Positions 13,026 through 33,900 of a stretch of DNA of 64,000 nt are shown piece after piece. Within the stretch, counting starts at the first letter, position 1, and every line of letters begins with the position of its first letter. The stretch covers positions 1 to 64,000 of the forward strand of contig PHAL01000021.1 of the NCBI GenBank assembly GCA_002840355.1. Direction: 5' to 3'. The position numbers were made by a program, and so were the translations under genes. Source of the DNA: Elusimicrobia bacterium HGW-Elusimicrobia-3 (lineage in GTDB: Bacteria; Elusimicrobiota; Elusimicrobia; Elusimicrobiales; UBA9959). Under the pieces are notes generated by a model. That model saw only the letters and a list, made by a program, of their open reading frames with translations. It was not told the origin of the DNA and made no database searches.

Positions 13026-13850
13026 TCAGGGGACCTGCTGCAGGCGCACCGGGCGGCCTTTGGGCACCGGCGCGCTGGCGTAGGAATCGCGATTGCCCGG
13101 GTCGGTCCCGGCCGCCATGGCCAGCGGGTTCACCCGGTACTTCACCAGCGTCTCTTTGCGTCCCGGCTCCACGCCGGCCACGCTGAAGATGCCGCTGGGA
13201 AAATCCGAGAGCGAGACGAGTATCACCAGGTCGAAGGCGCCGAAATCGTGCGGCGCCGGCTTGAGTTTGCGGGCATTGGCGAAAGTCCACCAAGTCTCGG
13301 AGCTTTTAAAAACCTTGTAGTCCACCGGAGCCGCCAGCAGGGTCACCCCTTCCTGGCCGCTGCCTCGGCCGAGTTCCGGCATGCTGGAAACCTTCACTCC
13401 ATGGCCCCTGGGGCTGGAGGCGCCCAGGTCGCGCAGCTTGCGGTCCAGGTCGGCGTCGCTGAGATTTATGGGGGGCGGCTTGCGCCTGTTCCCGCCGGCC
13501 ATGTCGTTGAGCATGGCCATCATGTCCTTGGGCTTTTCGGCCACGCCGCTGAAATCCTTGTCCTTCACCAGCTGGATGGCGCCGTTGGAGGTGACGGCCG
13601 CGGTGGAGAGGCCCTGCCTGGCGGCGGGGATCATGGAGGCCCTGGGAACGCCGCCGGCCCGGGCCGCGGCCATGGCCTGCTGCGCCACGGTCTCGGCGCT
13701 TTCCGGCTTCTCGTCCGAGATCTCCTGGCCATCGGCGTCCAGCCTGGCGCCGGAGAAACTCCCTATGTAATTGACCAGCATGAGCAGGAAGAAAATAACT
13801 ATCAACCCGCTAAACATGTATATCAGCGCGCGTATCGCCCTTGCGTCCAT
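13026..13850 (-). CDS. Membrane-anchored protein with PrcB-like C-terminal domain
   Basis: About 274 residues from the ATG at 13848-13850 (MDARAIRAL). One N-terminal membrane helix (about residues 12-32) is followed by a long Ala/Pro/Lys-rich linker and a C-terminal domain of about 100 residues. That domain contains SETWWTFANARK, FDLVILVSLSDFPSGIFSV and a final PVPKGRPVRL. This order resembles the PrcB C-terminal fold, whose best known member stabilises a spirochaete protease, but identity is low and the call is tentative. Topology predicts a periplasmic C-terminus. It is divergent from the GYF-domain gene across 172 bp of AT-rich DNA that presumably holds both promoters. Confidence 0.55.
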   Translation of the reverse strand: MDARAIRALIYMFSGLIVIFFLLMLVNYIGSFSGARLDADGQEISDEKPESAETVAQQAMAAARAGGVPRASMIPAARQGLSTAAVTSNGAIQLVKDKDFSGVAEKPKDMMAMLNDMAGGNRRKPPPINLSDADLDRKLRDLGASSPRGHGVKVSSMPELGRGSGQEGVTLLAAPVDYKVFKSSETWWTFANARKLKPAPHDFGAFDLVILVSLSDFPSGIFSVAGVEPGRKETLVKYRVNPLAMAAGTDPGNRDSYASAPVPKGRPVRLQQVP

Positions 13851-14022
13851 TGCTAAAGTATACAAAAAGGATTTAATTATTAGTTATTATTTCCGTAACA
13901 GCCCAATTGTAGAATTAATACGTACATATGCGTTTTAATTTCTATTTCCTAAATACCATATATATGCCCGCGGCCCTGGGGCGCAGTAATGCGGAACGAT
14001 CAAACCGGGACAGGAAGGCGAT

Positions 14023-15936
14023 ATGAAATATTGGGCGTACGTTAACAACGAGATCCTCGGCCCCTTCGAAAAGGACAAGCTCCGCGAGCTGCCGTCATTT
14101 TCTCCCTCCATGCTGGTCTGCCCCCAGACCCCTGTAGGCGAGAAGACGGAAGACTGGAAGGAAGCCTCCACCTACCCCGAGCTTTCGGCCGGCGGGGCCG
14201 CCCCGCAGCCGGAGCCCGCCCCGGCACCGGCGGCTTTCCAGCCTGCTCCCGCCGCGCAGGAACCGGCGCCGCAGCCGGCTTTCCAGCCCGAGCCCGTCTC
14301 CGCTCCGGAGGCGGCCCCCCAGTCTTTCCCCCAGCCCGCCATAGAAACCACCAGCCTCAGTTTTAAGCCCCTGCGGGCGGCGCAGTCCATAGATCCCGTA
14401 CCCCCTCCCACCCATACCGACGGCATGGCCGATATCGCGGTGAACCGTCTGGGCGGCGGCACGGCCGCGCCCGCCCCGGCCCCCGAAGCGGTAGCGCAGT
14501 CCTCAGCCGGCTTCGACCCCATCAGCCTCTCGCAGATAGTGCGCCGCACCGAGCCGGTCGGCCAGGAAGCGCCCGCGCCCGAGGGCCTGTCCCTGGAACC
14601 GCGCAACGATCAATTCCAGCCGGCCGCCGCCCCGGAACCTGCTCCCGAACCCGCGGCCGCCGCGCCGGCACCCGAGCCCGCCGCGCCGGCTCCCGAACCG
14701 GAGGCGTTCACTCCTCCGGCCGCCGCCCCCGCGCAGTTTGAAACCGAGAATTTCCCCCGCGCGGCCGCCTCCGCCGCCGCGCCGGTGGCGGATACGGCCG
14801 GCCTGGAGAAACTGCTGCGCCGCCTCGACGAGATCTCGGCCAATTCCGTCAGCCGCAAGGACGTGGATAACGCCGTAGACCCCATCCGGATAAAGCTGGA
14901 CCAGATGGGCGAGGTCGTTTCGTCGATAAAGAACTCGCAGTTCCAGCGCGAAGTGACCGATAAACTGGCCTACCTGGAGAGCGCCATCGGCGACGTCAAG
15001 GCGGCCCTGCGCAACCCGGCCCCTGCCGCCGCGCCCGCTCCCTCGCAGGAGCTAAAGATAGAGAGAAATTCCGACACCGTGTTCGGCGTGGAACCGCAGC
15101 GGGCCGCCAGGGAGCCGGAGAAAGCCAAGCCGGAACCGGCCAAGGAACCCGTCAAAGAGGAGCCCAAGGATATCGGCACCAAGAAGTCCAATGTCGGCAT
15201 GGCGCTCAAGAAGGTCTTTAAACTTATACTTACCCTGGTGCTGCTGGTCGCCGTCCTGCTGGGCGCCGTGATAGGCCTCAAGACCTTCGGCATCTTCGAT
15301 GCCACGGTCTTCATACCGTTCCCGCTGCCCTTCGTCTCCGCCCCGCAGCAGTCCGAGCCGGCCGGTGCCGGGGAATTACAGGAGGGCGCCGCGCCGGAGC
15401 AGCCCGGCCAGCCCGCCGCCGACGGCACGCAGGCCGCTGCCGAGCAGCAGCCGGCGACCGAGGCAGAGATCAAGGCGCAGGAGGAGGCCGCCCGACAGCA
15501 GGCCGCCAAGGACGCCGCCCCCGAAATCACGTATATAACGCGCACCTTCAAGCCCGACGCTTCCGGCGCCAGCCTGGAGAACAAGGTGTACGCGCACGCC
15601 ACCAAGGCGGGCGGCAACCCTAATAGTACCGCCTGGGAGGTAAGAACCGCCCCGGAGGGCATGTTCGAGATAGACGCTGTCATACCGTCCAGGACGGGGA
15701 ACCTGACCTATACCTTCGTGGTGGACAGGGCCCGGAAGAGCGTGGCCCCGGTGAACGACGCGGCCAAGGCGGCTTTCGCGCCGCCCCCGCCGGTGCGCAA
15801 GAAAGCGGCCAGAAAACCGGCCGTCAGAAGACCGGCGGCGCCCAAGCCCGCCGTCAAAGCGGCGCCCAAGCCGGCCCCCGTGCCGATAGAGGCAGGGGAA
15901 GAATACGAGTACGTCTACGAGGACGAGCTGGAATAA
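14023..15936 (+). CDS. GYF_2-like domain protein with Pro/Ala-rich linker and one membrane helix
   Basis: 637 residues; Shine-Dalgarno AGGAAGG lies before the ATG. Residues 1-50 (MKYWAYVNNEILGPFEKD...) look like a GYF_2-type domain, a peptide-recognition module. They are followed by about 200 residues rich in Pro/Ala/Glu, a short helical segment (about 265-335), and one membrane helix at about 400-422 (ILTLVLLVAVLLGAVIGL). A C-terminal region follows, with ITYITRTFKPDAS, a second Pro/Ala/Lys-rich stretch and an acidic end. The GYF domain is presumably cytoplasmic and the C-terminus periplasmic. Function is unknown. The simple-sequence linkers suggest a spacer that crosses the periplasm, in the manner of TonB/TolA-like proteins (inference). 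Confidence 0.65.
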   Translation: MKYWAYVNNEILGPFEKDKLRELPSFSPSMLVCPQTPVGEKTEDWKEASTYPELSAGGAAPQPEPAPAPAAFQPAPAAQEPAPQPAFQPEPVSAPEAAPQSFPQPAIETTSLSFKPLRAAQSIDPVPPPTHTDGMADIAVNRLGGGTAAPAPAPEAVAQSSAGFDPISLSQIVRRTEPVGQEAPAPEGLSLEPRNDQFQPAAAPEPAPEPAAAAPAPEPAAPAPEPEAFTPPAAAPAQFETENFPRAAASAAAPVADTAGLEKLLRRLDEISANSVSRKDVDNAVDPIRIKLDQMGEVVSSIKNSQFQREVTDKLAYLESAIGDVKAALRNPAPAAAPAPSQELKIERNSDTVFGVEPQRAAREPEKAKPEPAKEPVKEEPKDIGTKKSNVGMALKKVFKLILTLVLLVAVLLGAVIGLKTFGIFDATVFIPFPLPFVSAPQQSEPAGAGELQEGAAPEQPGQPAADGTQAAAEQQPATEAEIKAQEEAARQQAAKDAAPEITYITRTFKPDASGASLENKVYAHATKAGGNPNSTAWEVRTAPEGMFEIDAVIPSRTGNLTYTFVVDRARKSVAPVNDAAKAAFAPPPPVRKKAARKPAVRRPAAPKPAVKAAPKPAPVPIEAGEEYEYVYEDELE

Positions 15937-18243: not shown

Positions 18244-18981
18244 CTAGTTGCCGAAGTCGAAGCCCTTGAAGAGGTCTTCCTCGGCCTGCGCGCCGCCGGC
18301 GGGGGCGGCGTCGGGCCTGGCGGCGGGCTGCGGGGCCTGCGCGCCGGGCAGGTTCTGCATGCGGCCCTTGCCCTCGCCCACAGGCTGCACTATGACCTTG
18401 CGCACGCCCTCGGCGAAGGCCAGGAAGCCGTTGTCGAGGTTATAGTAGAGGCGGAAAGGGGATTCCTTCATCTGCGGCTCGTAGGCCTTGCCCAGGTTCA
18501 GGCGCTGCTGGTCCCAGCCGGGGTTGTAGACCAGTTTGCCGCGCACGTCCACCTCGCTGTCGGTGACCGGCAGCGAGAAATGGATCTTGAACAGGCCCAT
18601 GGTGTCGGTGATGCCGGGCGCGAAAGAGAGGTTGATGGCGGAATTGGCGTTCTCGTCTAGCGCGAAGGAGTCGCCGCCGTCGCCGCCGCCGGCGCCCTGC
18701 CGGCCGGTGTCGGGCAGGACCTTCACGGTGACGCCCTCTATCGGGTTGCCCTGGTAATCGGTGATGACGCCCTGGATGTTGCCGTCCAGGAAAACGCTCA
18801 TCTTGGTGGTGGAGAAGAACAGGAACTCGCGCTTGCCGGTGACCTTCTTGGTCAGCGACAGGTCGCCCACGCGCGAGTCCGTGTAGTCCACCACCTTCAG
18901 GCGCTTCATGCCGCCGAAGCAGCCGGCCAGCGGCGCGGCCAGCAGGGTAACGGCCAGTATGCGGATCAGTTCTCTCTTCAT
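18244..18981 (-). CDS. Lipoprotein of the motor operon
   Basis: 245 residues with a lipoprotein signal (LAGC, Cys21). The mature part has LDGNIQGVITDYQGNPIEGVTVKV, a carboxypeptidase-regulatory/Ig-like beta-sandwich pattern, a Gly-rich loop, a second beta-rich stretch, and a Pro/Ala-rich tail ending in EEDLFKGFDFGN. Function is unknown. It starts 16 nt after the motB stop with Shine-Dalgarno AGGAAGG, so it belongs to the motor operon. A lipoprotein beside a stator is reminiscent of FlgH- or MotX-like accessory proteins only by position; no homology is claimed. Confidence 0.7.
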   Translation of the reverse strand: MKRELIRILAVTLLAAPLAGCFGGMKRLKVVDYTDSRVGDLSLTKKVTGKREFLFFSTTKMSVFLDGNIQGVITDYQGNPIEGVTVKVLPDTGRQGAGGGDGGDSFALDENANSAINLSFAPGITDTMGLFKIHFSLPVTDSEVDVRGKLVYNPGWDQQRLNLGKAYEPQMKESPFRLYYNLDNGFLAFAEGVRKVIVQPVGEGKGRMQNLPGAQAPQPAARPDAAPAGGAQAEEDLFKGFDFGN

Positions 18982-18997: not shown

Positions 18998-19801
18998 TTA
19001 TTCCCAGCCTTCCGCGGGCGCTTCTCCGGCCGGGGCGGGGGTCTGCGGGGCCGGGACTTCCGCCGCCGGCAGTTCGGGGGCGCCCTCTGGCGCTGCCGGC
19101 GCCTGCCCGGGCACGGCCGGGGCTCCCCCCTCCGGCGCTGCCGGGAGGGGCTTGCCGTCGGGCCCCGGGGGGCCGGTCGGGTCGGGATAGGGATTGTTCT
19201 TGATGAAGAACACCACGCGGCGGTTCTTCTTGCGGTTCGGCTCGCTGTCGTTGGGCACTACGGGGTGGTATTCCCCGTAGCCCACGGCCGCCAGCCGCTT
19301 CGGCGAGAACTTGTTCCCCAGCATGGATTTGACCACGCTGGTGGCGCGGGCGGTGGAGAGTTCCCAGTTGGAGGCGAACTGTTTGGTGGCTATCGGGATA
19401 TTGTCGGTGTGGCCTTCCACCACGATGTCGTGCTTCTCGGCCAGCTTCAGCAGCACCGGGGAAAGCTTGTCCATCTGGGCGCGCATCTGGTCGGTCAGGT
19501 CGGACTTGCCGCTCTCAAAGAAGGCCACCTGGCTCTGTTCCTCGAGGGTGATGCGCATGCCTTCCTTGTCTATCTGCACCTGGCCCGCCATCTTGCCCTC
19601 TTTGATCATCTCCTGGATGTCCTGCTGGGCCTTCTGCATGTCCTTATTGAGGGCGGCTGAAAGGGCGTAGAGAATAACGAAGAAGCAGACCAGCTCGGTC
19701 ATCAGGTCGCCGTAGGCGATGCTCCAGGGCGGGCCGGGGTGGCCCACCTGAGAGACCCTGGGGTCATCCTCGCTTATCATCCCTTTGACTTTTAGCCGCA
19801 T
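18998..19801 (-). CDS. motB: Stator protein MotB with OmpA-like peptidoglycan-binding domain
   Basis: 267 residues. After a short cytoplasmic start, one membrane helix (about residues 27-50) carries Asp32 in AYGDLMTELVCFF, the proton/ion-binding residue of MotB. An OmpA/MotB domain (about 85-200) shows EGHTDNIPI, NWELSTARA and EPNRKKNRRVVF, which anchor it to peptidoglycan. A Pro/Ala/Gly-rich tail of about 65 residues extends beyond the usual MotB end, which is unusual. With MotA it should form an ion-driven torque-generating stator. It begins 31 nt after motA. The helix and Asp context fit MotB better than ExbD/TolR, which lack the OmpA domain. Confidence 0.93.
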   Translation of the reverse strand: MRLKVKGMISEDDPRVSQVGHPGPPWSIAYGDLMTELVCFFVILYALSAALNKDMQKAQQDIQEMIKEGKMAGQVQIDKEGMRITLEEQSQVAFFESGKSDLTDQMRAQMDKLSPVLLKLAEKHDIVVEGHTDNIPIATKQFASNWELSTARATSVVKSMLGNKFSPKRLAAVGYGEYHPVVPNDSEPNRKKNRRVVFFIKNNPYPDPTGPPGPDGKPLPAAPEGGAPAVPGQAPAAPEGAPELPAAEVPAPQTPAPAGEAPAEGWE

Positions 19802-19832: not shown

Positions 19833-20615
19833 TTAAGCCGCTTCTTTCTTTACGGATTTACGCTTTTCCGGCTCGAGATAGGCCTTCAGGTTGGCCTCCA
19901 CCACGCTGGGCGTGGCCCCGCTCTGCAGCAGCAGCACGCCGCGGATGATGATCTCCTTGACGAAGAGCTCCTCCTCGGAGCGGTGCTTCAGTTTGCCGGC
20001 CATCGGCAGGAAAAGCCAGTAGCCTGAGCCCAGGCCGTAAAAGGCCGCGGCCAGCGCCAGGGCCATGCGGCGCGGAACCTGGGCCACGTCGTCGATGGAG
20101 GACAGCATCATGATCATGCCCAGCACCGTGCCGATGATGCCGAAGGCCGGGGAATAAGTGCCCAGGGCGTTGAAGATCTCACGGCCGGCCTTGTGCCGCT
20201 CCCTGATGAAGTCGAGCTCGGTCTCGAGCATATTGCGGATGAATTCGTGGTCGGCGCCGTCTATGACCAGCTGCACGCCGCGCTTGAGAAAATCGTTATC
20301 AATGGCTTTGGCTTCGGACTCCAGCGCCAGGAAACCCTCTTTTTTAGCCTTCTGCGACAGGGACAGAAAGGTCGTGACCAGGCGCGAAGTGTCCTCCCCT
20401 TTGCTGCTGAGCACTTTTCTCAGGACCTTGGTCACGCCTATGACGGAGGAGAGCGGGAAATTGACCAGCAGGGCGCAGAAGGTCCCGCCCATCACTATCA
20501 GGAACGCCTCGGCGTTTAAGAAAGGCTTGAAGCCGTGTATGCCCTCGCCGAGAAAGATGGCCGCGAACACGAACCCGCCGAAGACTATGATGCCGCTGAA
20601 TGTAGCTATATCCAT
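19833..20615 (-). CDS. motA: Stator protein MotA
   Basis: 260 residues with four membrane helices. The conserved prolines Pro156 (TYSPAFGIIGTVLGMI) and Pro204 (FLPMAGKLKHRS) of the MotA family are present. Between helices 2 and 3 lies a cytoplasmic loop (about 60-145) that in flagellar motors contacts FliG and contains GFLALESEAKAIDNDFLKRG. A Shine-Dalgarno GGAG is 7 nt before the ATG. It lies between flbD and motB. MotA/MotB without hook, rod or filament genes in the window suggests a stator serving a non-flagellar rotor; the FliG-like partner is encoded 3 kb upstream on the same strand. Confidence 0.93.
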   Translation of the reverse strand: MDIATFSGIIVFGGFVFAAIFLGEGIHGFKPFLNAEAFLIVMGGTFCALLVNFPLSSVIGVTKVLRKVLSSKGEDTSRLVTTFLSLSQKAKKEGFLALESEAKAIDNDFLKRGVQLVIDGADHEFIRNMLETELDFIRERHKAGREIFNALGTYSPAFGIIGTVLGMIMMLSSIDDVAQVPRRMALALAAAFYGLGSGYWLFLPMAGKLKHRSEEELFVKEIIIRGVLLLQSGATPSVVEANLKAYLEPEKRKSVKKEAA

Positions 20616-20941: not shown

Positions 20942-23371
20942 TCACTCTTCCTGTTTTTTGCCCTTGATGGCCCACTTCAGGCGCTCCGCGAAGGAAGCCT
21001 CGAGCGAGCGGTATTTCTCCAGCTCGGCGGCGGCTTGCGCCAGGCGGGCGGCGTCGGCGGCGGCCTGGTCGGCGGCGGCCTGCGCCTGCGCGGCGGCGGC
21101 GTCGCGCTCCTCGTCGAGCAGCGAGGCGGTCTCCTGGGCCTGCAGCTCCATCTGCTGCACCTTCTGCTTGAGGAAGAGCAGCTCGGATTCGAAGCGGGCG
21201 CGGTTCTCGCTCTCCAGCCTGAGGTTCTCGGCCTGGGCCTTGAAGCTGTCCGTCAGGCGGGCCAGCTCGGCCTCCTCGGCGGTCTTGCGGGACTCTATAG
21301 CTGAATATTTCTCGCGCAGGGCGGCGTACTCGGCCGACAGGCGCTGGCGCTCGGTCTCCACGGCCTGGGCGGCCTTGGCGGCTTCGGCGGCGCGGGCCAG
21401 GGACTCGGAGAGCTGGGCCTCGGCGCGGGAAGCCTGCTCGTCGCGGCGCTTGGCCTCGGCCTCGGCGCGGACCAGCCTGTCCTCGAAATCCTTGGTCCTG
21501 GCGGCGATGGTCTTTTCGAACACGGCGCTCTCGGCGGCGAGGCGGCGGTTCTCGGCCTCCAGCCTGACCAGCGAATCCATCGCGGCGGAGGCTTCCGCGC
21601 GGGCGGTAGCCAGCTGGGCGGTGTGGGTGGTCTCGAGCTGCTTGCGCACGGCGGCCTTCTCCTCTTCGGAGGAGGACTCGTACTGCATGCGCAGCTGGGA
21701 GACCTTGGCGTCCAGCTCGGCCTGGCGCTCGGCGGAGATCCTGGCGACCTCGGCCTGGGCGTCGGCGGAGATCTTGGTGACTTCGGCCTGGCGTTCGTCG
21801 GAGATCCTGGCGACCTCCTCCTGGCGCTCGGCGGAAACCTTGGCGAGTTCCGACTGGTGGGCCGCGGCGGCCCTGGAGGCTTCCTCGCGGCGTATCGATT
21901 CCAGCCTGGCAATCTCGGCCTGGTGGGACGAGGCGGCGTTGGCCAGCTCGGCCTGGTGCACCGCGGCCAGCCTGGACAGCTCCTCCTGGTTCCTGCGGGA
22001 GGCCTCGGCCAGCTCCTCGGCGTGCCTGGCGGCCAGCTCGGCCCCGTAGCCGTTCTTCACCCGGGCTATCTCGGCCTTGTAGCCGGTGGCCTGGGCTTCC
22101 AGCTCGCTCTGGTGGGCGGCCTTGATGGTGTCCAGCTCGGCCTTCTGGCGGCGTATCTCTTCGAGCTGCGCGGCCATGTTCTGGGCGAGCTGCATCTTCT
22201 CGAGCCGCAGCTGCCCGCGCTCCTTGTCGAGCACGGCGTTGATGGCCTGCACCCGGGACACGAAGCCTTTGATCTTGACGAGTTCGGAGATGGCGCGCAC
22301 CTTCTCGCCGTTCACGTCGGCCAGGGACTTCTCCTTCTCCAGCAGCGCGGCGTCGTAGCGCTCGGCCTGCTTGCGGAGGGCCTCGTTCTTCTCCTCGTTC
22401 TTGCGGTCGGAGATGGCGCCGATCTCGGCCTGCAGGCGGCCTATCTCCTTCTGCATCTTCTCCAGTTCGAAAGCCTGTTTTTCGGCGTTGTGCTTCTCCT
22501 CGAGGCGCGCCTTCTCCTCGCGGCCGCGCAGCGAGATATTCTCGCTCCGCAGGTCCGCGATCTCGCGCTCCTTCTCGGGGATCATCTTGATATAGGTCTC
22601 TACCGAAGCCTTCTCGCGCTCGGCGCGGGCCACGTCGTCGCGCAGCCTGGAGACCTCGCGGTCGGACATGGTCTTTTCCAGCGAGATCTTGCGCAGCTCG
22701 TCCTCGGTGTCGCGCAGCTTCTCGGAGGCGGACTTGAGAGAGCGGATGGTCTCCTCGCGGGAGGTGATCTCTTTCTGCCACTGGGCCTTTTCGTCGAGCC
22801 AGCGGCGCTCCATCTCCTGGAGCCTGTAAATAAAGTGCCCTTCCACGTCCCGCCCCTGCACCTCGCGCTCGGACATCTGGTTCTTGAGCGTGGTCATCCA
22901 GGTCTCGCGCTCCTGCGCGAGGCGGGTCTCCATCTCTTTGATCTTGGACTTCAGCGTGAGGCGCTCTTCCTCGACCTCGTGGTCGCGGCGGTCGCGGCGC
23001 ATCTTGTCCTGTATATCCTTAAGCGAGGACTCCACGCGGGAGGAGAGGGCCTCGTCCTGCTGGTTCTTGAGCGTGGCGAGCAGCGCCTTCTCTTTCTCGG
23101 CCGACAGCAGCTTCTCCATGTCGGAGATCTTGCGCTCCAGCTTGTCCTTCTCTTCCTGCAGGCGGCGCTCTTCTGCGTCGTCCTTGGCGGCGGACTGCGG
23201 GGCGGCGGCCGGCTGGCCGAAGCCCTGGGGCAGCGAGGGAAAACCGGCCTGCGGCATGCCAGGCATGGACGGCAGAGGAGGCCTGCCGGCAGGAGGCGCC
23301 GGCGGCATACCAGGCTTGAGCATCCCCGGGGGAAGCGGGGGCATCTTGGGTATTTTCATCTCGTCTGCCAT
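20942..23371 (-). CDS. Long coiled-coil protein of the motor locus
   Basis: 809 residues with no signal peptide or membrane helix. Residues 1-60 are Pro/Met/Gly-rich (PKMPPLPPGMLKPGMPPAPP); from about 65 to 790 the sequence is almost continuous charged coiled coil. Near residues 480-570 it becomes regular with 11-residue periodicity (units such as AEVARISAERQ), a right-handed hendecad pattern. The end carries the basic segment FAERLKWAIKGKKQEE. A 700-residue coiled coil would be about 100 nm long, so a cytoplasmic scaffold or filament is likely. It lies between the FliF-FliG fusion gene and flbD-motA-motB on the same strand. A role comparable to motility scaffolds such as AglZ is speculation by context only. 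Confidence 0.75.
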   Translation of the reverse strand: MADEMKIPKMPPLPPGMLKPGMPPAPPAGRPPLPSMPGMPQAGFPSLPQGFGQPAAAPQSAAKDDAEERRLQEEKDKLERKISDMEKLLSAEKEKALLATLKNQQDEALSSRVESSLKDIQDKMRRDRRDHEVEEERLTLKSKIKEMETRLAQERETWMTTLKNQMSEREVQGRDVEGHFIYRLQEMERRWLDEKAQWQKEITSREETIRSLKSASEKLRDTEDELRKISLEKTMSDREVSRLRDDVARAEREKASVETYIKMIPEKEREIADLRSENISLRGREEKARLEEKHNAEKQAFELEKMQKEIGRLQAEIGAISDRKNEEKNEALRKQAERYDAALLEKEKSLADVNGEKVRAISELVKIKGFVSRVQAINAVLDKERGQLRLEKMQLAQNMAAQLEEIRRQKAELDTIKAAHQSELEAQATGYKAEIARVKNGYGAELAARHAEELAEASRRNQEELSRLAAVHQAELANAASSHQAEIARLESIRREEASRAAAAHQSELAKVSAERQEEVARISDERQAEVTKISADAQAEVARISAERQAELDAKVSQLRMQYESSSEEEKAAVRKQLETTHTAQLATARAEASAAMDSLVRLEAENRRLAAESAVFEKTIAARTKDFEDRLVRAEAEAKRRDEQASRAEAQLSESLARAAEAAKAAQAVETERQRLSAEYAALREKYSAIESRKTAEEAELARLTDSFKAQAENLRLESENRARFESELLFLKQKVQQMELQAQETASLLDEERDAAAAQAQAAADQAAADAARLAQAAAELEKYRSLEASFAERLKWAIKGKKQEE

Positions 23372-23637: not shown

Positions 23638-25578
23638 TTATCGACCCACGCTCGCTTTGAAGCCGGCCAGCCATTCGGTGGCGGCCGGGTCGCCGGAGAG
23701 GCTGGCGTACTTCTCGTAGGCGGCCACCGCCTCGTCCACGCGCTGCAGGCCGTAGTAGGCCGCGCCCAGGTACTGCCAGGTGGAAGCGTCGCCCGGGTTC
23801 AGCGAGGAGGCGTATTCCAGGTACTGCAGGCTCTCCTGCACCTGGCCCTGGTTGTACATATTGGCGCCCGCCTCGGCGTACTGTTTGGCCTGCTCGAGCT
23901 GCTCCGGAGTGGGTCCGGCCGCGGCCGGGGCGGAACCGGACAGGCTCTCGTATTTCTTGCGGCGCTCGTCGCCGGAGGACATCTCGTCGCCCTCTATCAT
24001 ATAGACTTCCTGCGAATTGCCGCCGCGCGAGGCGATCTTGCCCTCGGCTTCCAGCGCCTTGATGGCGTCCAGGATCTTCATCTGCGCCTCGTCCGACTGG
24101 GCCAGGCTGATATCGCCGGAGTACTCCATGATCTCCTTGACGGAGTTCACGGCGCCCTGCGACATGTTCGTGAAGAACTTGTTGACGATGGCAGGATCGG
24201 CCTTGGCCAGCGCCTTCGCCACGTCCTCGTTGTTAAGGTTGCGGATGATGGACTGCATGTCGCGGTCGGCGAAATTGACGATGTCCTCGAACATCAGCAC
24301 GATCTGGCGCACCTTGGCGTAGACGTCCGGCTTCTGCGTCTTGAGGTACTCTATGATGTTCTTGCGGGTGGCCGGGTCGGAGTCGTCGAGCATCTTTATC
24401 AGGCGCTCTATGCCGCCCATCACGAAATCCACGTTCTCCCGGATATCCTTGTCTATGGCCTCTATCTGCTCGCGGGTGGCCTGGCGCACGGTCAGGGCCT
24501 CCAGCGCCACGCGGCTCTGCATCTCCACCGGCAGCATCGACAGGGCCTGGCGGCTCAGGTCGGGCTTGAGGTAGCTCAGCACCACCGCGATGACCCACGG
24601 GTCCTCTTTGCGCAGCAGGAACAGGTAGATCAGGCGCTTGAGGTTCTCCTCGTTCAAATAGGTGAAAGGCTCGAATTTCTTCATAAGGTCGTCCTCATCC
24701 TCACTCTTCTCCTCCTCCTTCTGAAGGAAGTTCATATCTATGCTCTGGTGACCCTCGGTCTCCTGCTTGCCCTCTTCGTCCCCCCCGCCGCCGCCCTCTT
24801 CGCGCTTGTCCTCTATGTTCACCTCGGCGCCGGGCTTGGCCATCAGCGCCTTGATGTACTTGCGGAAGAAGCCCCAGAGCGGGCCGAACAGGAACAGCAG
24901 CAGCAGCAGGAACAGCAGCGCGTAAAGCAGGGGCAGGTAGACGGACGGCTTCTTGAGGTCGTCGAGCGGGTTGCCGGCCTTGAACTTGGTGGGCTTGAAC
25001 ACCACGGTAGGCGCGCCGGTCTTGCGGATCTTGTAGGGCACCAGGAAATCGTCTATGCGCTCGCGGGCCAGCGCGATGGAGGCCGGGGCGAGCTGTTCGT
25101 CATGGATGATGGTCAGCTGGAAGCGGGTGATCTCGGTCTCCAGGCCGTAGCGGATCTCCTGCACGCCCTTGGCCTGCTGGGCCTGCTGCCCCTGAGCCGC
25201 CTCGGGGCGCTTGTTCTCGCCGCTCAGCACGGAGCGGGGCTTGGGGATGCCGGGCAGGATGAAATCGGTGTCGGCGGCCTCGTCGCTGCCGCCCTTCTCC
25301 TTGTACTTCTGCATCACGCCCAGGCCTTCCTTGCTCTGCTCGGCCTTCTTGGAGATGACCTCAAGTTCCACGTCGGCGAAAACGAAAGACCGGTCGGCCC
25401 CGAGGATGGGGTCGAGGATCTCCTTCTTGACCTTGGTCTCCGCCTCGCGGCGCATGGAGTCCTGCTTCTGCATCAGCGAGGTCTCCATCATGGGATTGCT
25501 GAGAGCGGCGCTCTGGGCAGATACCCGGGGCGTCCAGAGGCTCATGACGAGCGCTAGGGCGGCGAAAAGCCTTTTCAT
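23638..25578 (-). CDS. FliF C-terminal domain / FliG fusion with C-terminal TPR (rotor protein)
   Basis: 646 residues. Residues 1-22 are a signal peptide. Residues 45-185 resemble the periplasmic C-terminal domain of FliF (ILDPILGADRSFVFADVELE ... EIRYGLETEITRFQLTII). One membrane helix follows at 213-233, then an acidic cytoplasmic linker. Residues 300-520 are FliG middle and C-terminal domains: EDPWVIAVVLSYLKPDLS replaces the classical EHPQTIAVVLSHL motif, followed by FEDIVNFADRDMQSIIRNL and FFTNMSQGAVNSVKEIM. Residues 555-640 form TPR-like helices. The topology equals FliF's last membrane pass joined to FliG, without the ring-building N-terminal half of FliF or the FliG N domain. By eye the charged FliG torque residues are largely replaced. 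Likely the rotor partner of the MotA/MotB encoded nearby. Confidence 0.85.
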   Translation of the reverse strand: MKRLFAALALVMSLWTPRVSAQSAALSNPMMETSLMQKQDSMRREAETKVKKEILDPILGADRSFVFADVELEVISKKAEQSKEGLGVMQKYKEKGGSDEAADTDFILPGIPKPRSVLSGENKRPEAAQGQQAQQAKGVQEIRYGLETEITRFQLTIIHDEQLAPASIALARERIDDFLVPYKIRKTGAPTVVFKPTKFKAGNPLDDLKKPSVYLPLLYALLFLLLLLFLFGPLWGFFRKYIKALMAKPGAEVNIEDKREEGGGGGDEEGKQETEGHQSIDMNFLQKEEEKSEDEDDLMKKFEPFTYLNEENLKRLIYLFLLRKEDPWVIAVVLSYLKPDLSRQALSMLPVEMQSRVALEALTVRQATREQIEAIDKDIRENVDFVMGGIERLIKMLDDSDPATRKNIIEYLKTQKPDVYAKVRQIVLMFEDIVNFADRDMQSIIRNLNNEDVAKALAKADPAIVNKFFTNMSQGAVNSVKEIMEYSGDISLAQSDEAQMKILDAIKALEAEGKIASRGGNSQEVYMIEGDEMSSGDERRKKYESLSGSAPAAAGPTPEQLEQAKQYAEAGANMYNQGQVQESLQYLEYASSLNPGDASTWQYLGAAYYGLQRVDEAVAAYEKYASLSGDPAATEWLAGFKASVGR

Positions 25579-26089: not shown

Positions 26090-27655
26090 TTATTTCACCT
26101 GGCGCAGGAAGTTCTTGACCATCGTGTTGTTGGGATTGATCTCCACGACCTTTTCCCAGATGACCTTGGCCTTCTCCTTCTGGTCCATCAGGTAGAAGGA
26201 GCTGCCCATGATCTCGAGGGCGGTCTCGTTGTTGGGCTCGAGGTCCAGGATGTCCTGGGCGCGCTTCATGGCCAGGTCGTACTTGCCGTCGTAGATGGCC
26301 TGGCGGGCGTCGTAGGTGCGCTGGTCGATATAGGTGAAGATCTCGGGGCCCTCGGGCTTGCGGGTGAGCTCGCTCACGCCGGCCTCGCGCTCCACCATGT
26401 TCAGCAGGGAGAGCAGGCGGTCGTTCTTCGGGTCCTTGTTGAAGGCGTGGCGCAGCACGTTGACCGAGGCGCGCAGGTCCTTGCCGTCCACGTAGGAGAT
26501 GATGCCGCGGCGGGTCAGCGTGGGGACCTCGTCGCCGCCGGTGGCGTCCGGCACGTAGTCGATGGCGCCCTGCAGGCGGGTGACCATGCGGCGGATCTCG
26601 GGGTTGCCCGGGTCGGCGTCCATCGCGGCGCGCAGCTTCTCCATGGCGCGGCTGAAGTAGCCGCTCTTGAAGTACTGCAGGGCCTGGCGGACCAGCTCAC
26701 GCACCTCGCGGTCGTGCTTGGCCTTGTTGCTCTGGCCCATGCGCAGCGTCACGGAGAAGCGGGTGGTGGAACCCAGCGCGTGCACGCCCTGGGCCACGTC
26801 GAAACCGAGGTTCTTGTACTTGATGCCGAGGCCGAAGTCGGCCTCCTGGATCTCGGGGGCGCCCTGCACGCCGAAGCGCAGCGCGGCCCAGTACATCAGC
26901 CAGTACTCGCCGCCGAAGCGCCAGTTCATCGAGGACCCCTGGGGCTTGTTCAGGTCGAAGCCGAACAGCAGGCTGCCCTTGAACAGGCTCAGGGCCTGGC
27001 CGAACTTCAGGGTCAGGGGCAGCTTGTCCTCGGTGTCGCCCGAGGCCATGGAGAAAACGTTCTGGATGCCGACCGCGGCGCGGTAGGTCTTGGAGAACTT
27101 GTTGAGCATCGCTATGTCGATGGCGTTAAAGGAGTCCACGGAGGTGTCCAGCGAGCGGCTGATATTCTTGGCCATGATGCCGAAAGCCAGCTTGTCCGAA
27201 ACATCGCGGCCCCAGGAGAAAGCCAGCGCGCGCTCGGTGCTGTCGAAAGTGCCGAGCGTCTTGATGTCGATGATCTCGTCGCCGGCGGGGTTGGCGGTGA
27301 TGGAGATCTTCTCGAAGCCGGTGGACTGCAGCTGGGTCATGCTGACGGCCCAGGTGCCCTTGGTGCTGGTGGGGTGCGCGTAGGTGAAGAAGTTGAGCGT
27401 GGTCTGCTCGAAGAGCGTGGCCTGCATGGCGGTGAATTCTTTGCGCTCGAGCAGGGTGAGGGCCGCGGGGTTCCAGTAGGAGGCGGAGGCGTCGTCGGCC
27501 ACCGCGAAGAAGGCGCCGCCCATGCCCAGGCCGCGCGCGCCGGCGCCGTAGCTCATGAAAGCGCCGGGCTGGCCGCCGCCCTGGGCCAGGGCAGTCGCCG
27601 CCGAAAAGACAATAAAAAACCCCATGGCGAGGCTGAAGCGCATAACACGCTTCAT
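26090..27655 (-). CDS. PorV/PorQ-like outer-membrane barrel fused to TPR domain
   Basis: About 521 residues from the ATG at 27653-27655, chosen because it gives a clean signal peptide (MKRVMRFSLAMGFFIVFSAA...); an ATG at 27706 is possible. The mature N-terminus shows SYGAGARGLGMGGAFFAVAD followed by ASASYWNPAAL, the signature of PorV/PorQ (UPF0164) barrels. The barrel spans roughly residues 25-325 and is followed by TPR-like repeats (about 335-521, e.g. AMKRAQDILDLEPNNETALEIMG). PorV in Bacteroidetes shuttles C-terminal-domain proteins to the cell surface in type IX secretion. Here the gene lies next to a giant protein ending in a FlgD/CTD-like domain. It has its own promoter and a c-di-GMP riboswitch. 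Confidence 0.82.
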   Translation of the reverse strand: MKRVMRFSLAMGFFIVFSAATALAQGGGQPGAFMSYGAGARGLGMGGAFFAVADDASASYWNPAALTLLERKEFTAMQATLFEQTTLNFFTYAHPTSTKGTWAVSMTQLQSTGFEKISITANPAGDEIIDIKTLGTFDSTERALAFSWGRDVSDKLAFGIMAKNISRSLDTSVDSFNAIDIAMLNKFSKTYRAAVGIQNVFSMASGDTEDKLPLTLKFGQALSLFKGSLLFGFDLNKPQGSSMNWRFGGEYWLMYWAALRFGVQGAPEIQEADFGLGIKYKNLGFDVAQGVHALGSTTRFSVTLRMGQSNKAKHDREVRELVRQALQYFKSGYFSRAMEKLRAAMDADPGNPEIRRMVTRLQGAIDYVPDATGGDEVPTLTRRGIISYVDGKDLRASVNVLRHAFNKDPKNDRLLSLLNMVEREAGVSELTRKPEGPEIFTYIDQRTYDARQAIYDGKYDLAMKRAQDILDLEPNNETALEIMGSSFYLMDQKEKAKVIWEKVVEINPNNTMVKNFLRQVK

Positions 27656-27710
27656 TTCAGCCCATATAGCCAAGGGGGCAAAGGCAATACAAAGATTGCG
27701 TTTCATTGTT

Positions 27711-27786
27711 TTCGGCAGCCTGACCCCCGCTCACTTAGCGGGTCTTAGCTTTGCGCCGCCGGTTTTCACCGGCTTTGCTATTATCG
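27711..27786 (-). ncRNA. Cyclic-di-GMP-I (GEMM-I) riboswitch
   Basis: On the minus strand the leader contains AATAGCAAAGCCGGT, a GAAA tetraloop closed by GCCGGT/ACCGGC, then GGCGCAAAGCTAAGACC, a second hairpin CCCGCTAAGTGAGCGGG, and GTCAGGCTGCCGAAAA. This is the order of conserved GEMM elements: GCAAA, GNRA-capped stem, CGCAAAGC, variable stem, and AGG-TGCC closing P1. The base before the first CAAA is G, as in c-di-GMP rather than cAMP-GMP sensors. It lies between the promoter and the PorV-like start codon. No obvious intrinsic terminator follows, so control is probably at translation (inference). Confidence 0.85.
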
Positions 27787-27831
27787 TACCAGTACTGCAT
27801 TACAAACTCGTTACAGATTTACGGCATTAAT

Positions 27832-27859
27832 ATTATAGCAGATTAAACGGCTTTGTCAA
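27832..27859 (-). promoter_or_regulatory. Near-consensus sigma70 promoter of the PorV-like gene
   Basis: Exact TTGACA (27854-27859), 16-bp spacer and exact TATAAT (27832-27837) on the minus strand. Start near 27825, giving a leader of about 170 nt that contains the riboswitch. Confidence 0.85.
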
Positions 27860-27940: not shown

Positions 27941-30900
27941 TTAATGTATAACGCCTATCTTGCGCAGTATGACCTTGCTGCCCTTGGGGCTCGAGGCCTT
28001 TACGCGCACTATATAGCCGCCCTTGGAAACCGTGCCGCCCAGGCCGTTCTTGCCGTCCCAGAGCACGTGGTTGGGGCCCAGCTTGCCGCCGTCCGAGCCG
28101 CTGGTGAAGCGGAACTCCTTGACCACGTAGCCCAGCAGGTCGTAGATCGTCATCGTCACTTCGGCGTTGTCGTTAAGGGTGTAGGTAATGTCCACCCTGC
28201 CCTCCACGCCGCCCTTGCGCAGGTCCACGGGGTTCGGGAAACTGGAGACCTTGCTGATCAGTTCCTCGCCTATCGTGGTGCCGGCCGGGGTGGAGATCGG
28301 GGACCACTCCGAGTGTATGCCGGCGAAGTTCCAGCTGCGCACCCGGTAGGTGTAATAAGTGCCGGTCTTGCGCGGCGTTTCGCCGGGCACGGAGACGTCG
28401 CCCACGGAGTAGATATTGTTGATGGCGCCGCCGGTCTTGAAGCCGGGGATGGCCGCTATGGTCTTCCAGACGGGGCTGGTGCCCACGCGCTCCTGCACCT
28501 CGTAGGACATGATATTGGACTCGGGGTCGGACGCGGCGTCCCACTTGAGGGTATAGACCTGGCCCGAGGCCACGCCCTTGGCCACCTGGGGCTCGGGGGC
28601 GCCGGGGACGGTCGGGTAGCTGGTGTCGATGCGGTAGATCAGCACCGGCACGCCGTTCTCGCTGGGCACATAGCGGCCGTCGGCCATCTTGCCGCGCACC
28701 GAGACGATGTAGCCGCGGTCGGAAACAGACTCGCCCCAGGCCGTATGCGGGCCCTTGAACGAGCCCTGCACGCCGCGCTGCTGCACGGCGAAGGTGACGC
28801 CGTCGAGCTTCCTGACCAGCATGATCTCGTTGCCGACATAGATGATGCCCTCGGTAGCGAAGCCCTCGGTGGACTGCACCGTGAAGGAGGAGGTGTTTAC
28901 CTCTATGCGGCTGGTCAGCTTGGTAAGGTGGCCGGGGGATAGCGCCACGTTGGTCACGCTGCCGCCCAGCGAGGCGCCTACCGACTGCCAGGAGTTCTTG
29001 ATGCCGATAGGGTCCTCGAAGTTGCCGCCCAGCGAAACCTCGTAGGAGTCCACGGCTCCGGAAGCGGGGTTCCACAGGGCCGGCAGCTCGGTGGTCTTGG
29101 CGGACCAGGCCGAGGGCACGGCGCCCAGGTCGGAGACGGCCAGCAGCAGGTTGGCGTTCTTCACGAAGTCGCCGATGAAGTAGAGCGGCTTGCCGGTGCC
29201 GTCGTCCACGATCTTGTCGGGCACGTAGTCCAGGTTGGACTCGAAGTCCAGCAGGCCGTCGCCGTTGATATCGAAGGAAGGCAGGCCGGAGTTGTTGAGC
29301 GTGACGTTCAGGCACTTGCCGGAGCCGTAGAAGTCGTAGTTGTCCGGCAGGCCGTCGCCGTTGACGTCTATCAGCGGCTCGTCAGCGCGGCAGCCGGAGG
29401 CGGTGTAATTATAGATCCAGTAGCTCGGGTCGGCCACCGGCAGGTTGCCGGCGCCCAGCAGCACGTTGCCGCTGGAGTCGGTCACCGCGTAGGCGGGGTA
29501 GCCGTTGGACGCCAGCATGATGTTCTTATACACAGGCGTCAGCGGGATAATGGCCGGCGCTATCAGCACCTGGTTGGAGGCGATCGGATAGACGTCCGAG
29601 AAGTTCTGGCCTGCGGCCAGCGGCAGGCCGCCGAGGCCGCGCAGGTTCGAGAAGGCGGCCAGCGACACGCTGGCCAGGTGGCCCAGAGTGTCCGCGCCGG
29701 ACAGGTCCGTGGAGGAGCTGACGTCGCAGGTGAGGTGCAGGATCATGCTCGAGGTGGAGACGATCAGGTAGGGCAGGTTGCCGTCCATGATGGGCACCGA
29801 GATCACGCTCTCGAAGGAATTGGCGGCGGAATGCACGGCCGAGCCCAGGCGGTAATCCGTGATCGGGCTGAAAGCGCCGTCGCCGTCGTCCTTCCAGAGC
29901 GATACGCTGGTCAGGTCGCCGTCGCCCAGGCCCACCGTGGCGCTGCTGATAGTGCCGCCCTGGGTGAAATTGACCTGGCCTATGGCCACGAAGTCCGAGA
30001 GCGTGGCCAGGTCCAGCGTGACCAGCGGTACGTTCTTGGTATCCTTCTGGGCCGACCTGGGCGAGATGTTGGTGCCGCTGACGGCCAGGGTGATGGCGCG
30101 TATCGGCACCAGGCTGGACGCGACCGGGTACTCGCCGGTATAGGTGCCCTGCGGCAGCGCCTTGTCGATGTTCATGTAGACCTGCGCCGAGATGTCGTGC
30201 GGCACGTTGACCGTGAGCCAAGAGCGGTCGCGGATCATCAGGCCCACCTTGTTGGCCTTGACGGCCATTTCGCCGATGTCGTAGACGGCGAAGAAGGTCT
30301 GGGCCAGCGGGCTCAGCGTCTGGGTCTGCGCCAGGCTGACCGTGATCTGCGTGTTCAGAGCGTTGTCCTGGTCGAACAGGTCCACCTTGCGCACCTTGGC
30401 CCCGGCGGGGTGGTTGATCAGCGGGGTGATAAAGTCGCCCAGCCGCTCGCCCCTGTAAGTGACGGTGAGGTACGGCTTGCCGGAGGCGGAGATGCCGCTG
30501 CCGCTGTAGGTCATCAGCTCGGCGTCGCTGACGTACAGCCGGCCGGAGACCGGGAAGCCGGCGGTGGAGTCCAGCACCAGCGCGAACGGCACCGTGACCG
30601 TGGACGAGAGCGGAACGGCCAGCTTGGTCCCGGCCTCCGAGATATTGATGTCGTTGACGTCCAGCACGTCGTTCTGGTTGGAGTCCTGGTAGATGGACAC
30701 GAACTTCACGTCGGTATTCTTGCCGAACGGCGCGTTCGGGTCGTTGGAGGCGCCGGTGCGCTGCACCTTGACCGCGCTCCAGCGGGCGTTGCCGGCTTCT
30801 GTGGTCAGGTTGAAGCGCAGCATCGGCACGCCGACCTGGGCCTGGCCCACGCCGCCGGACTGCAGCAGCGCGGCGGCCATGTCGTTGGCGCCCAGCATGA

Positions 30901-33900
30901 CGTTGGAAGGGATCTCCTCTATCTTTACCGGCATCGTGTTCACCGGCCAGGTGGTCATCGTGACCGTGTTGGGAATGCCGATCGTCAGGTCGGCGATGCC
31001 GCCCAGGTTCAGGGCCGTGGTGGAGCCCACGATGGCGAACTGCGAGAGATCGTAGCTGACGAAGGCGCAGGACGGCGACGTCGTGATGACGATCGGCGTC
31101 TTGAGCACCACGTTGATCGTGCTGGAGGAATAGGCCTCGTTGCCGTAGCTCATCAGGTTGGGGTACAGGCCGGCCGTGGTGGAAGCCGTATCCACGGCGT
31201 CCAGGATGCAGTTGTCGTTGGAATCTTTCCAGATCTTTATTAGATCGATGTCCGAGTCCGCGGCGGTGCCGAGGCGGCGCAGCTTGACGGCCTGCAGCAG
31301 GGCCGAGGTTTTGTCCACCTTCATGTGCATAGCCAGCAGGCCGACATTTTTGTCGTTCTGCACGGCCGCCACGGGCGAGATGTCCTCGGGCTCCAGCGTG
31401 ACGTTGTTGAGCGTGGGCATCACTACCGTCATGGCGCTGGCGGCGGGGCCGAGGAAATCGGCGACGTGGCCGGAATTATCGGGTCCGAAGAGGAAGTTGC
31501 TTTCGAACGGCACCTCGACGCCCAGCACGTCGTTCTGCGGCGTCAGCTGCTCGTGCGAGAACCGGGAAGCGCGGTCCACGTCCATCGTGACGAAGATGAT
31601 GGTCGGGGTGGCGCTGACCACGACATAGTCCTGGTTGGTCAGCGCCGGGTCGGCCACGTAAACGGTGGCTTTGCCCACGGGGTCGTTGACGCCGAAGCGG
31701 GCGCTGCCCACCAGCACGTCCGAGGTGTTCATGCCGGTCACCGGGTCGCGGTCGAAGATGCCGTTGCCGTTGTCCTTCCAGACCTTGACCATGCTGATGT
31801 CGGAGTCGTAGCCGTTGAGGCCCGAAGGCTGCATGCGCGAGAGCCGGAAGCCGCGCCAGCGCACGCCGTAGCCGGCGGTCAGCAGCGTCATCTTCATGAA
31901 GGGGTAGTTGTCCCAGCCCTGGCGCACCATGCCGCCCAGCGCCGCGCCGGAGGAGTGGTTCACCACCGGCGTGTTAAAGACGCCGCGGGTGACCATCGTC
32001 AGCGCGCCGGCCGCGGTGCCCGCGTACTGTACCACCTCGTTATCAACCATCGCGTACCCTGACGACGGGATGCCGGCGGTGGAGGTCACCAGCCAGGCGG
32101 CGTCCATCGGGCCGGGGCTCACCACGTCCTGCGTCAGGCGCAGGTTCGGGAAGGACCGGCCGCCCTCGTAGGCGAAGACCGGCTCCGTGTTCACCGTGAC
32201 GGTGCTGGGCGAGGAGATGATCTCGCGCACCCTGGAGACATAGGTCAGATTGGAATCGTCCGCGAAGAACTTATTGGGCAGCGACAGCGCGTTCTTGGAC
32301 GTGTCGTCGAAGCTCGGGCTGCCCTGCGGGAAGGACTCGGGCTTGAGATAAGCGCCCAGGTAGCGCGGGTTGCCCAGCGCGTCATTGGGCATGGCCGAGT
32401 CCCTGATGTCGTAGGTCAGGAAGTAACGCATGGAGGTGTTGTCCAGCGCGGCCTTTCCGGAGGTCACGATGCGCTGCTCCTGGGAGAGAGAAACCCTGGC
32501 CACCAGCGGGCCGTAGATGGTATTGCCGAACGTGCCCGAGCCGACCTCCTCGTCGATGCCGCCCAGGAAGCCGTTGTTGTCCTTGTCGTACCAGATCTTC
32601 ACGGCGGACACGTCGGGCACGGCCGTGCCGTCCCTGATGGCCGTGCCGGTGGCGTAGACCAGCATCCAGCGCCACATAGCGTCGGCCACGTCCGTCTTCA
32701 TGGTGAAGTCCAGTATAGGCTGGTTGACCGCCTGCTGCTGCAGGTTCTCGCCGGTGAACGTGTCGGAAGCGGTCACGATGACCGAGTCGGCGAACTCGCT
32801 CACGCGGCCCACCAGCGACAGCGTCTTGCCGGGAGCGGTCACGCCCACGTTGGCCTGGCTCATCTGCTTGGGCGCCTCGATGTAGAAGTAATCCGTGGTA
32901 CGGATCGCCATGCCCAGGTACGAGAAGTTGGACACGTTGGCCAGGGGGTCGATGTCGTAGGTGATGAAGTAGTCGCGGGGATCGGAGAAGATCACCTGGC
33001 CGTCGAGGCTGGTGCCGTCGCCTATCAGCGGCAGCACGGCCTGGCCAGAGATCACGGTGCCGCTGGACCACTCCGCCTGGGTCGTGCCCTCCGCGCCGCG
33101 CGTCAGGCTGCCGAAGGAGTTGGTCAGCACGTCCACGGAGCCGTAGTACACGACCTCTTTGAGCGCGGGGTTGGGCTGGGCGTCGTTGACGATCAGGCGG
33201 CCGGGCGCCATCGGGAACGGGCTGTCCGACGGGAAGAACTTCTGGATGTCGGTCACGCGGATGACCGTGTCTGTGGAGACCAGCGGCGTCTTGAGCGTGT
33301 CGTAGGGGAAGTTGCGGGTGTTGGCGCCCAGCAGCACCACCTCGGTGTCTTTTATGGTCGTGGTGGTCTGCAGCAGGCCGTCTCCGGTGGAATCGTGCCA
33401 CAGGCTGATGCGCTTGACGTCGGTAACCATGTTCCAGGCGTCAGTGCCGCCGTTCTCGGAGGCGGTCACCCAGCGGTCCAGCTTGAGGCCGCGCCAGACC
33501 GCGGAACCGATAGTGTCGGTCACCTTCATCGTCAGGCGGGCGACCGGCTTGTTCTGGTCGTTCTGCGTGACGAAAGAGGGCTTGCTGAAGTCGTTCGGGG
33601 CGGACTTGTTGACGTCGAGCAGGTAGACCAGGTCGGCGGTGGCGTAGAGCGGCACGGTGGAGGAGGCCACCGGGGTAAAGGCCCCGACGACGCCGTCGAT
33701 CAGGCTGACGCCGGAGTTTTCCAGGCGCGCGCCGTGCGTCATGTTCGGGACGGCGTCCGGCTGGAACTCGTAGACCACGTAATAAGTGCGGGTACTTATG
33801 GATATGGCGCCGTCCACGCCGGGGTTATACAGCGGGAGCACGTAGGTGCCGGGGTCGGCCGGGTTGAACGTGGGCGGATTGGCCGGGTCCGTGACCTCTT

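Follow-up and report, generated by a model that had tools for sequence, protein, structure and literature searches.

We analyzed a 64,000-nucleotide stretch of DNA (the window; contig PHAL01000021.1) from Elusimicrobia bacterium HGW-Elusimicrobia-3, a metagenome-assembled genome (MAG) of 2.88 Mb in 95 contigs that is 97% complete. The window encodes an 809-residue coiled-coil protein, termed COIL here, between the genes for a FliF-FliG rotor protein and a MotA/MotB stator pair (Table 1); the genome holds one COIL at E 1e-5. The reading that we prefer, at a probability of roughly 45%, is that COIL acts in the cytoplasm as a scaffold, positioning a rotary motor that is ion-driven but not flagellar and is built from MotAB stators and FliF-FliG(-TPR) rotors.

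The preliminary description of this DNA had placed an almost wholly coiled-coil protein of ~100 nm between rotor and stator genes, and both points held. The open reading frame (ORF) is present on the minus strand, with a gene for the 74-residue FlbD protein also lying between COIL and MotA. An AlphaFold2 model (mean pLDDT, the predicted local distance difference test score, 68.5) contains helices at residues 67-168, 174-278, 289-506, 558-792 and 794-802, with breaks at 169-173 and 279-288 and a low-confidence stretch at 507-557. At 0.1485 nm per residue, these 669 helical residues would extend ~99 nm if straight, the model being a monomer in which a straight rod and a hairpin are indistinguishable. 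A whole-length Fourier test of periodicity was not significant (p ~0.26), as expected because COIL is a coil with phase breaks, and local power was used instead. Over residues 64-803, power in the 3.45-3.67 band was 2.03 compared to 1.03 +/- 0.16 in block shuffles, none of 500 of which was as high; for residues 64-260, 260-440 and 575-803 taken separately, 2, 8 and 1 of 500 shuffles, respectively, were as high. Residues 440-575 were not significant in this band (73/500 block shuffles as high). Here lag-11 residue identity was 0.33 compared to 0.12 in shuffles (0/2000 as high), with lag-7 identity at background (0.12). Thus, the hendecad section described earlier for residues 480-570 is a real repeat, although it extends further than stated, over residues ~407-560 as judged by eye. 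It is also the poorest region of the single-chain model, residues 519-541 having pLDDT values below 50.

Neither a transmembrane (TM) segment (maximum 19-residue Kyte-Doolittle mean 0.83) nor, by eye, a signal peptide was found in COIL, in keeping with the cytoplasmic location suggested in the preliminary description; the protein contains no cysteine. Its Pro/Met-rich N-terminal tail was likewise borne out: residues 1-63 include 19 Pro and 7 Met, and most have pLDDT values below 50 in the model. COIL had no match in Pfam (E 0.1), and that of the window had none in NCBIfam. The SMC names that NCBIfam gives to some orthologues, and profile matches in the PDB (IgA receptor, apolipoprotein, lamin), were set aside as reflections of coiled-coil composition. 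Taken together, these features support the assignment of COIL as a predicted cytoplasmic coiled-coil protein tied to motor genes.

Orthologues were sought in 61 near genomes, the window's own included, and in 340 genomes of the phylum Elusimicrobiota (MAGs; G, L and f below are our handles for genomes, loci and families). COIL was present in 31/61 near genomes, all of the window's own family, and, using a 20-row profile, in 125/340 genomes of the phylum set, where FliG_C occurred in 151. The two were found together in 116 genomes, with COIL alone in 9, FliG alone in 35 and neither in 180; Fisher's test (odds ratio 66) takes no account of phylogeny, and we draw no probability from it. The place of FliG could be compared in 99 of the 116 genomes bearing both (17 could not). 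COIL lay within 8 kb of FliG, start to start, on the same contig in 94 of these 99, and on another contig in 5. Orthologues are therefore mostly found beside motor genes, as the motor association proposed in the preliminary description would predict. Among 26 near loci (L031-L056), COIL was present in 25, and all 25 contained FliF-FliG; FlbD and MotA accompanied it in 23 (not in L049 or the contig-cut L054), and MotA together with MotB in 21. Of 20 distant loci, all chosen for COIL (L106-L125), 17 contained FliF-FliG (not L106, L107 or L111), and 11 contained FlbD, MotA and MotB (L109, L110 and L113-L121; families f6 and f10-f15). In G061 (f3), COIL lies with the outer-membrane protein (OMP) gene (L107), and FliF-FliG, FlbD, MotA and MotB are on another contig (L139). 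Since stator genes do not adjoin COIL in 9 of the 20 distant loci, linkage to the rotor gene is the stronger: the tie of COIL to the rotor gene is phylum-wide, while its tie to the stator genes is narrower.

Conservation of COIL is highest in residues 86-200. Among 66 distinct sequences, E148, E154, W158, E177 and E194 scored 1.00, R190 0.98 and W191 0.94. This exceeds what a coiled coil needs to cohere, and the block is therefore likely to form a fixed binding surface. Both termini are also recognizable across 71 distinct COILs (4 fragments included): PPxP occurs within the first 80 residues in 68 and PPG[MFILV] in 38, while 61 carry W or F within their last 20 residues, compared to 0.37 of body 20-mers. 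The basic end that the preliminary description took to be conserved (ERLKWAIKGK) is indeed so, tryptophan included, with R[LMIV]KW[AV] kept in 19/20 aligned rows near the window, itself among them. More distant tips are also short and aromatic/basic (RFWNWLNKPIVE, KIWLWLTKPVLRI, SFLSRLFGK and SWLDRLKQSFQKK). A C-terminal amphipathic helix was considered and rejected, its hydrophobic moment of 0.50 not differing from the 0.49 of the coil body. In L054 and L112, which represent a single 5628-base contig, the TM-like stretch at the end of COIL continues past the contig edge. An apparent COIL-FlbD fusion in L120 (G203) was dropped because FliF-FliG is frame-broken in the same assembly.

COIL also occurs without the motor. 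Nine COIL-positive genomes lacked FliG_C, and 8 of these also lacked MotA (at 1e-15), the ninth, G143 (84% complete), having it. G194, G202, G214, G230 and G124 (92-97% complete) are sound cases of COIL without FliG_C and MotA; the pattern is less secure in G231 (79%), G164 (85%, where COIL scores a weak 73 bits) and G168 (where the contig is short and FlhA is present). In G125, G204, G217 and G233 the only MotA is a paralogous one (28-34% identity), distant from COIL. COIL of f15 adjoins MnmA in L126, L127, L128, L135 and L136 (not in L129, L134 or the short L130), and in f2 its neighbor is Ddl (L106 and L131). G023, a member of the window's own genus, offers the clearest example. A 20-kb stretch of its 56.8-kb contig (L140) contains COIL, FlbD, MnmA, Ddl, the gene for a GYF-TM protein and a homologue of the window's 13026-13865, in window order, and within that stretch no match to OMP, rotor, MotA, MotB or lipoprotein-like gene and no riboswitch was found (MotA was not searched for in the rest of the genome); the sole FliG_C match in G023 is paralogue-like (1.1e-14). 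In three motorless loci (L134, L136 and L140), FlbD still adjoins COIL in the absence of MotA.

Thus, COIL was kept after loss of rotor and stator genes in three families, once in the window's genus, and the motorless label changes 4 times on a 37-row COIL tree. Identity to the window over residues 131-200 was 65% in motorless f15 (n=8), 60% in motor-bearing f14/f15 (n=4) and 33% in two motorless f2 COILs; the motor-bearing f1 sample of this comparison included the motorless L022 (G023). Because COIL, and in f15 its block 131-200, persists without motor genes, COIL is under selection for some role besides this motor, in f15 at the least, and probably jointly with FlbD. The earlier proposal that COIL is attached to the motor accordingly stands in part: linkage to FliG recurs across the phylum, but COIL persists without rotor and stator genes. 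That COIL outlasts the motor, in one case inside a single genus, amounts to a natural experiment on its role. As a separate observation, a small divergent gene lies upstream of COIL in motorless L126, L128, L129, L134, L135 and L136, and several of these end in a PDV.K.L-type motif.

We propose that a coiled-coil COIL oligomer would form a rod of up to ~100 nm, the aromatic/basic C-terminal tip of which may contact either a motor subunit or the inner membrane. A fixed partner, for which FlbD is the first candidate, would be held by the conserved block (86-200), while the disordered proline-rich tail would recruit further partners at a distance. COIL would in this way place or cluster motor units, much as AglZ does in the gliding complexes of Myxococcus, rather than carry torque. 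COIL could then outlive the motor in the way that a landmark remains after the loss of one client. Also pointing to a scaffold, two other motor-set types of the same genome have a helix-former-rich gene directly after FliG, as judged by composition only.

Several observations weigh against this view, in which both role and mechanism are inferred from sequence and gene context. Besides the distant loci in which stator genes do not adjoin COIL, no FlbD or stator gene was found in the 5.6-7.3 kb downstream of COIL in L122, L124 and L125 (f18, f23 and f25); the stretch after COIL is shorter than this in L108, L112 and L123. A receiver domain of the AglZ type was not found in COIL (Pfam E 0.1), the N-terminal 63 residues of which are disordered. 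With a C-terminal hydrophobic moment no higher than that of the coil body, membrane binding rests only on the pattern of W/F and K/R residues. Lastly, coiled coils give chance matches: heptad-shuffled COIL scores 25 bits with the COIL profile, and the matches in G143, G164 and some second matches (40-73 bits) are not far above this, compared to ~120 bits or more for COIL in loci also holding motor genes. We hold more tentatively a wider form of the scaffold reading, according to which the machine that COIL positions may be of a class not yet described, serving motility or the movement of adhesins: a FliF-FliG rotary motor under control of a c-di-GMP riboswitch, without export apparatus or C-ring. 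This motor would be ancestral to much of the phylum and would come with as many as several paralogous sets per genome, some having their own helix-rich or kinase-bearing gene after the rotor gene.

The composition of the motor bears on an alternative in which COIL belongs structurally to the rotor, standing in for the absent FliM/FliN ring and attaching to FliF-FliG by way of the TPR domain. The predicted rotor protein comprises a FliF-like alpha-beta periplasmic domain, a TM helix, FliG M and C domains and TPRs; Foldseek matched the model to FliG (1lkv, 1.4e-9) and to a FliF-YlxF model (9a67, 8.9e-5). The FliF part is weakly supported, YscJ_FliF_C matching 1/19 window-type rotors (9.6e-6) and one paralogue (1.5e-9). 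Neither FlhA nor FliMN_C (FliM/FliN) was found in any of the 61 near genomes, in searches in which control genomes gave matches. In the phylum set, FlhA was seen in only 5/340 genomes (G144, G148, G166, G168 and G187), control genomes again giving matches. A vacant ring position would suit a rotor-part role, as would the TPRs, which occur in 19/19 window-type rotor proteins compared to 0/3 paralogous FliF-FliG proteins of the same genome, and the position of COIL as the next gene after the rotor, with stronger linkage to it than to the stator. COIL is kept, however, in genomes without FliG_C or MotA and in G023, which has no window-type rotor beside it, and the candidate TPR-binding tip still reads RLKWA in G023 and G125, whose only FliG_C matches are weak and paralogue-like. 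Moreover, L107 and L122-L125 carry here, between rotor (or OMP) gene and COIL, an extra helix-rich protein of 1600-1860 residues, with terminal TPR matches in L107 and L125, the two scanned. We consider a rotor-part role unlikely, having lowered its odds somewhat because of the G023 outcome.

A motor-attached ruler, track or filament, as the preliminary description had it, is about equally improbable for COIL. The length of the helix and its hendecads would suit such a role, and AglZ, described as filament-forming, provides a precedent (PMC4488436). COIL orthologues, however, have no fixed length, ranging from 507 to 1267 residues (script-called; fragments and L054, cut by its contig, excluded), and length varies most in the hendecad part of the 20-row alignment, so that the ruler in particular is unlikely.

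FlbD invites a further comparison. It belongs with SwrD, which is reported to raise motor power in Bacillus (PMC6878767), and COIL with FlbD could therefore plausibly act as a local motor-tuning hub. Least probable is a signal relay or tuner, in which the pair reads motor or c-di-GMP (cyclic di-GMP) state and passes it on: the SwrD kinship, the company of FlbD in the three motorless loci and the helix-former-rich genes after FliG in paralogous L066, L071 and L073 (with a histidine-kinase ATPase end in L066 and L071, the two scanned) would fit it, but COIL has no recognised output domain in Pfam and no detectable homology to the L066 coil-kinase.

Table 1. Features of the window, with COIL and its parts first
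Feature	Position	Strand	Basis
COIL, 809 aa	20942..23371	-	ORF, ATG start
COIL residues 1-63, disordered Pro/Met-rich tail with PPLPPGM	23183..23371	-	Composition; low pLDDT; PPxP conservation
COIL residues 86-200, most conserved block (W158, E177, R190, W191, E194)	22772..23116	-	66 distinct sequences
COIL residues ~407-560, hendecad repeats, most length-variable part	21692..22153	-	Identity at lag 11 (440-575); limits judged by eye
COIL residues 793-805, C-terminal tip SFAERLKWAIKGK	20957..20995	-	Alignments of orthologue ends
Rotor, 646 aa: FliF-like periplasmic domain followed by a single TM helix, FliG M + C and C-terminal TPR	23638..25578	-	FliG_C 9.8e-26, FliG_M 4.8e-11, TPR_2 2.2e-7
FlbD/SwrD family protein, 74 aa	20633..20857	-	PF06289 1.9e-24
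MotA stator subunit	19833..20615	-	PF01618 2.2e-28
MotB stator subunit with OmpA domain	18998..19801	-	PF13677 2.3e-11, PF00691 1e-17
Conserved lipoprotein-like gene after MotB	18244..18981	-	Syntenic; no strong Pfam match
FadL/UPF0164-like OMP with TPRs, first gene of set	26090..27706	-	TPR above cut-off, FadL and UPF0164 below it; syntenic
c-di-GMP-I riboswitch aptamer, immediately upstream of OMP-TPR gene	27711..27789	-	RF01051 59.4 bits
Sigma-70-like promoter TTGACA-N16-TATAAT before riboswitch	27832..27859	-	Read by eye
Large repetitive, probably surface protein with terminal FlgD-Ig-like domain, upstream of set	27941..36142	-	PF13860 1.3e-6 (last 519 aa); syntenic
Possible partner: N-terminal GYF_2, TM-like helix, further part beyond	14023..15936	+	PF14237 E 0.0015, below cut-off

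The gene set is ordered, in the direction of minus-strand transcription, OMP-TPR, FliF-FliG-TPR, COIL, FlbD, MotA, MotB and the lipoprotein-like gene, followed by MnmA and Ddl, which were named from sequence without a family search. Gaps of 511 bases separate OMP from rotor and 266 bases rotor from COIL. The riboswitch, behind a promoter that resembles the sigma-70 consensus, was present in 24/25 relatives with the OMP gene in view (6/6, 7/7, 3/4 and 8/8, L109 lacking it), the loci being related rather than independent and L115 and L106 having no OMP gene. None was found before the other four motor sets of the window genome (0/4, L068 being cut by a contig end) or at motorless COIL loci (0/7, plus none in L106 and L140). 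Taken together, these data suggest that c-di-GMP probably controls the gene set through the riboswitch, and we infer from gene order that COIL is on the same transcript. Upstream of the set, 27941-63917 on the minus strand contains two giant ORFs of 2733 and ~9500 residues, the first ending in the FlgD-Ig-like domain. A tmRNA gene lies at 1164-1514 (minus strand). Among named relatives, the nearest found was Elusimicrobia bacterium GWB2_63_16, whose rotor protein is 97% identical.

The first 55 residues of the GYF_2-TM protein are nearly invariant (14 rows), and we take its layout to resemble that of GltJ of Myxococcus, which is reportedly linked to AglZ through a GYF domain. PPG followed by a hydrophobic residue is a GYF ligand, and we considered pairing of the COIL motif PPLPPGM with this protein, encoded 5 kb away. 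Co-occurrence was not specific: a GYF domain was found in 102/125 COIL genomes, not in the other 23, and also in 110 genomes without COIL, and 6/50 close GYF orthologues came without COIL. Pointing toward pairing, the GYF gene remains with COIL in motorless G023; we keep the idea as a possibility only.

Five FliG_C genes are present in the window genome. Besides the COIL set, four FliF-FliG/MotAB sets per genome were seen, as L066, L067, L068 and L069 in the window genome and likewise as L071-L075, and these come with PorV/FadL-like OMPs and often with surface-type proteins and two-component genes. The helix-former-rich gene after FliG in L067 and L072 has a Pro/Ala-rich start, and L068/L074 and L069/L075 have no such gene; these genes were judged by composition and reading, and L070 gave no FliG match. 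We do not claim that COIL is homologous to the coils in the paralogous sets (L066, L067) or to the extra coil and TPR proteins, the best whole-sequence E of 0.046 being worse than shuffled controls.

According to a 2025 survey, which asks what use half a motor may have, 11% of non-motile species carry rotor proteins but no filament proteins (PMC12199754). The elusimicrobial phylum has been described as clearly lacking flagellar genes (PMC7031533), and the main text of a 2025 MotAB survey does not name Elusimicrobi- (PMC12505986). Among the matches listed from mostly open-access literature, none was a paper describing this gene set. The COIL set offers a concrete, conserved candidate answer to the half-motor question, with rotor, stator, FlbD, OMP and what would be a dedicated cytoplasmic rod behind one c-di-GMP riboswitch.

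The set shares with the flagellar motor a homologous FliG, a MotA/MotB stator pair and FlbD, and likely the FliF-like part. In contrast to that motor, it has neither FlhA nor FliM/FliN, its FliF part is reduced and fused to FliG with TPRs, and an outer-membrane protein and large surface-type proteins are encoded nearby; we know of no flagellar counterpart of COIL. Ion-driven motor genes beside genes for outer-membrane and large surface-type proteins are also a feature of the type IX secretion/gliding machinery of Bacteroidota, the motor of which is GldL/GldM. Matches to the type IX proteins PorV and PorP/SprF were, however, confined to two paralogous sets and did not include the window OMP, and SprA was found in 0/61 genomes in a search in which no control genome gave a match either. 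AglZ, of the Agl-Glt machine of Myxococcus xanthus, has an N-terminal pseudo-receiver domain and binds MglA-GTP and MreB. AglZ serves AglRQS, whereas the COIL set has FliG and MotAB, and COIL, unlike AglZ, has a Pro-rich tail and a conserved tip; the proposed likeness is functional, and homology is not claimed. AglZ is reported to be cytoplasmic and part of the Myxococcus gliding motor complex, and is called a filament-forming coiled coil in a title (PMC4488436). Like COIL as we predict it, AglZ is thus a cytoplasmic coiled coil of an ion-driven envelope motor complex, placed outside the channel (PMC4488436, PMC3169522).

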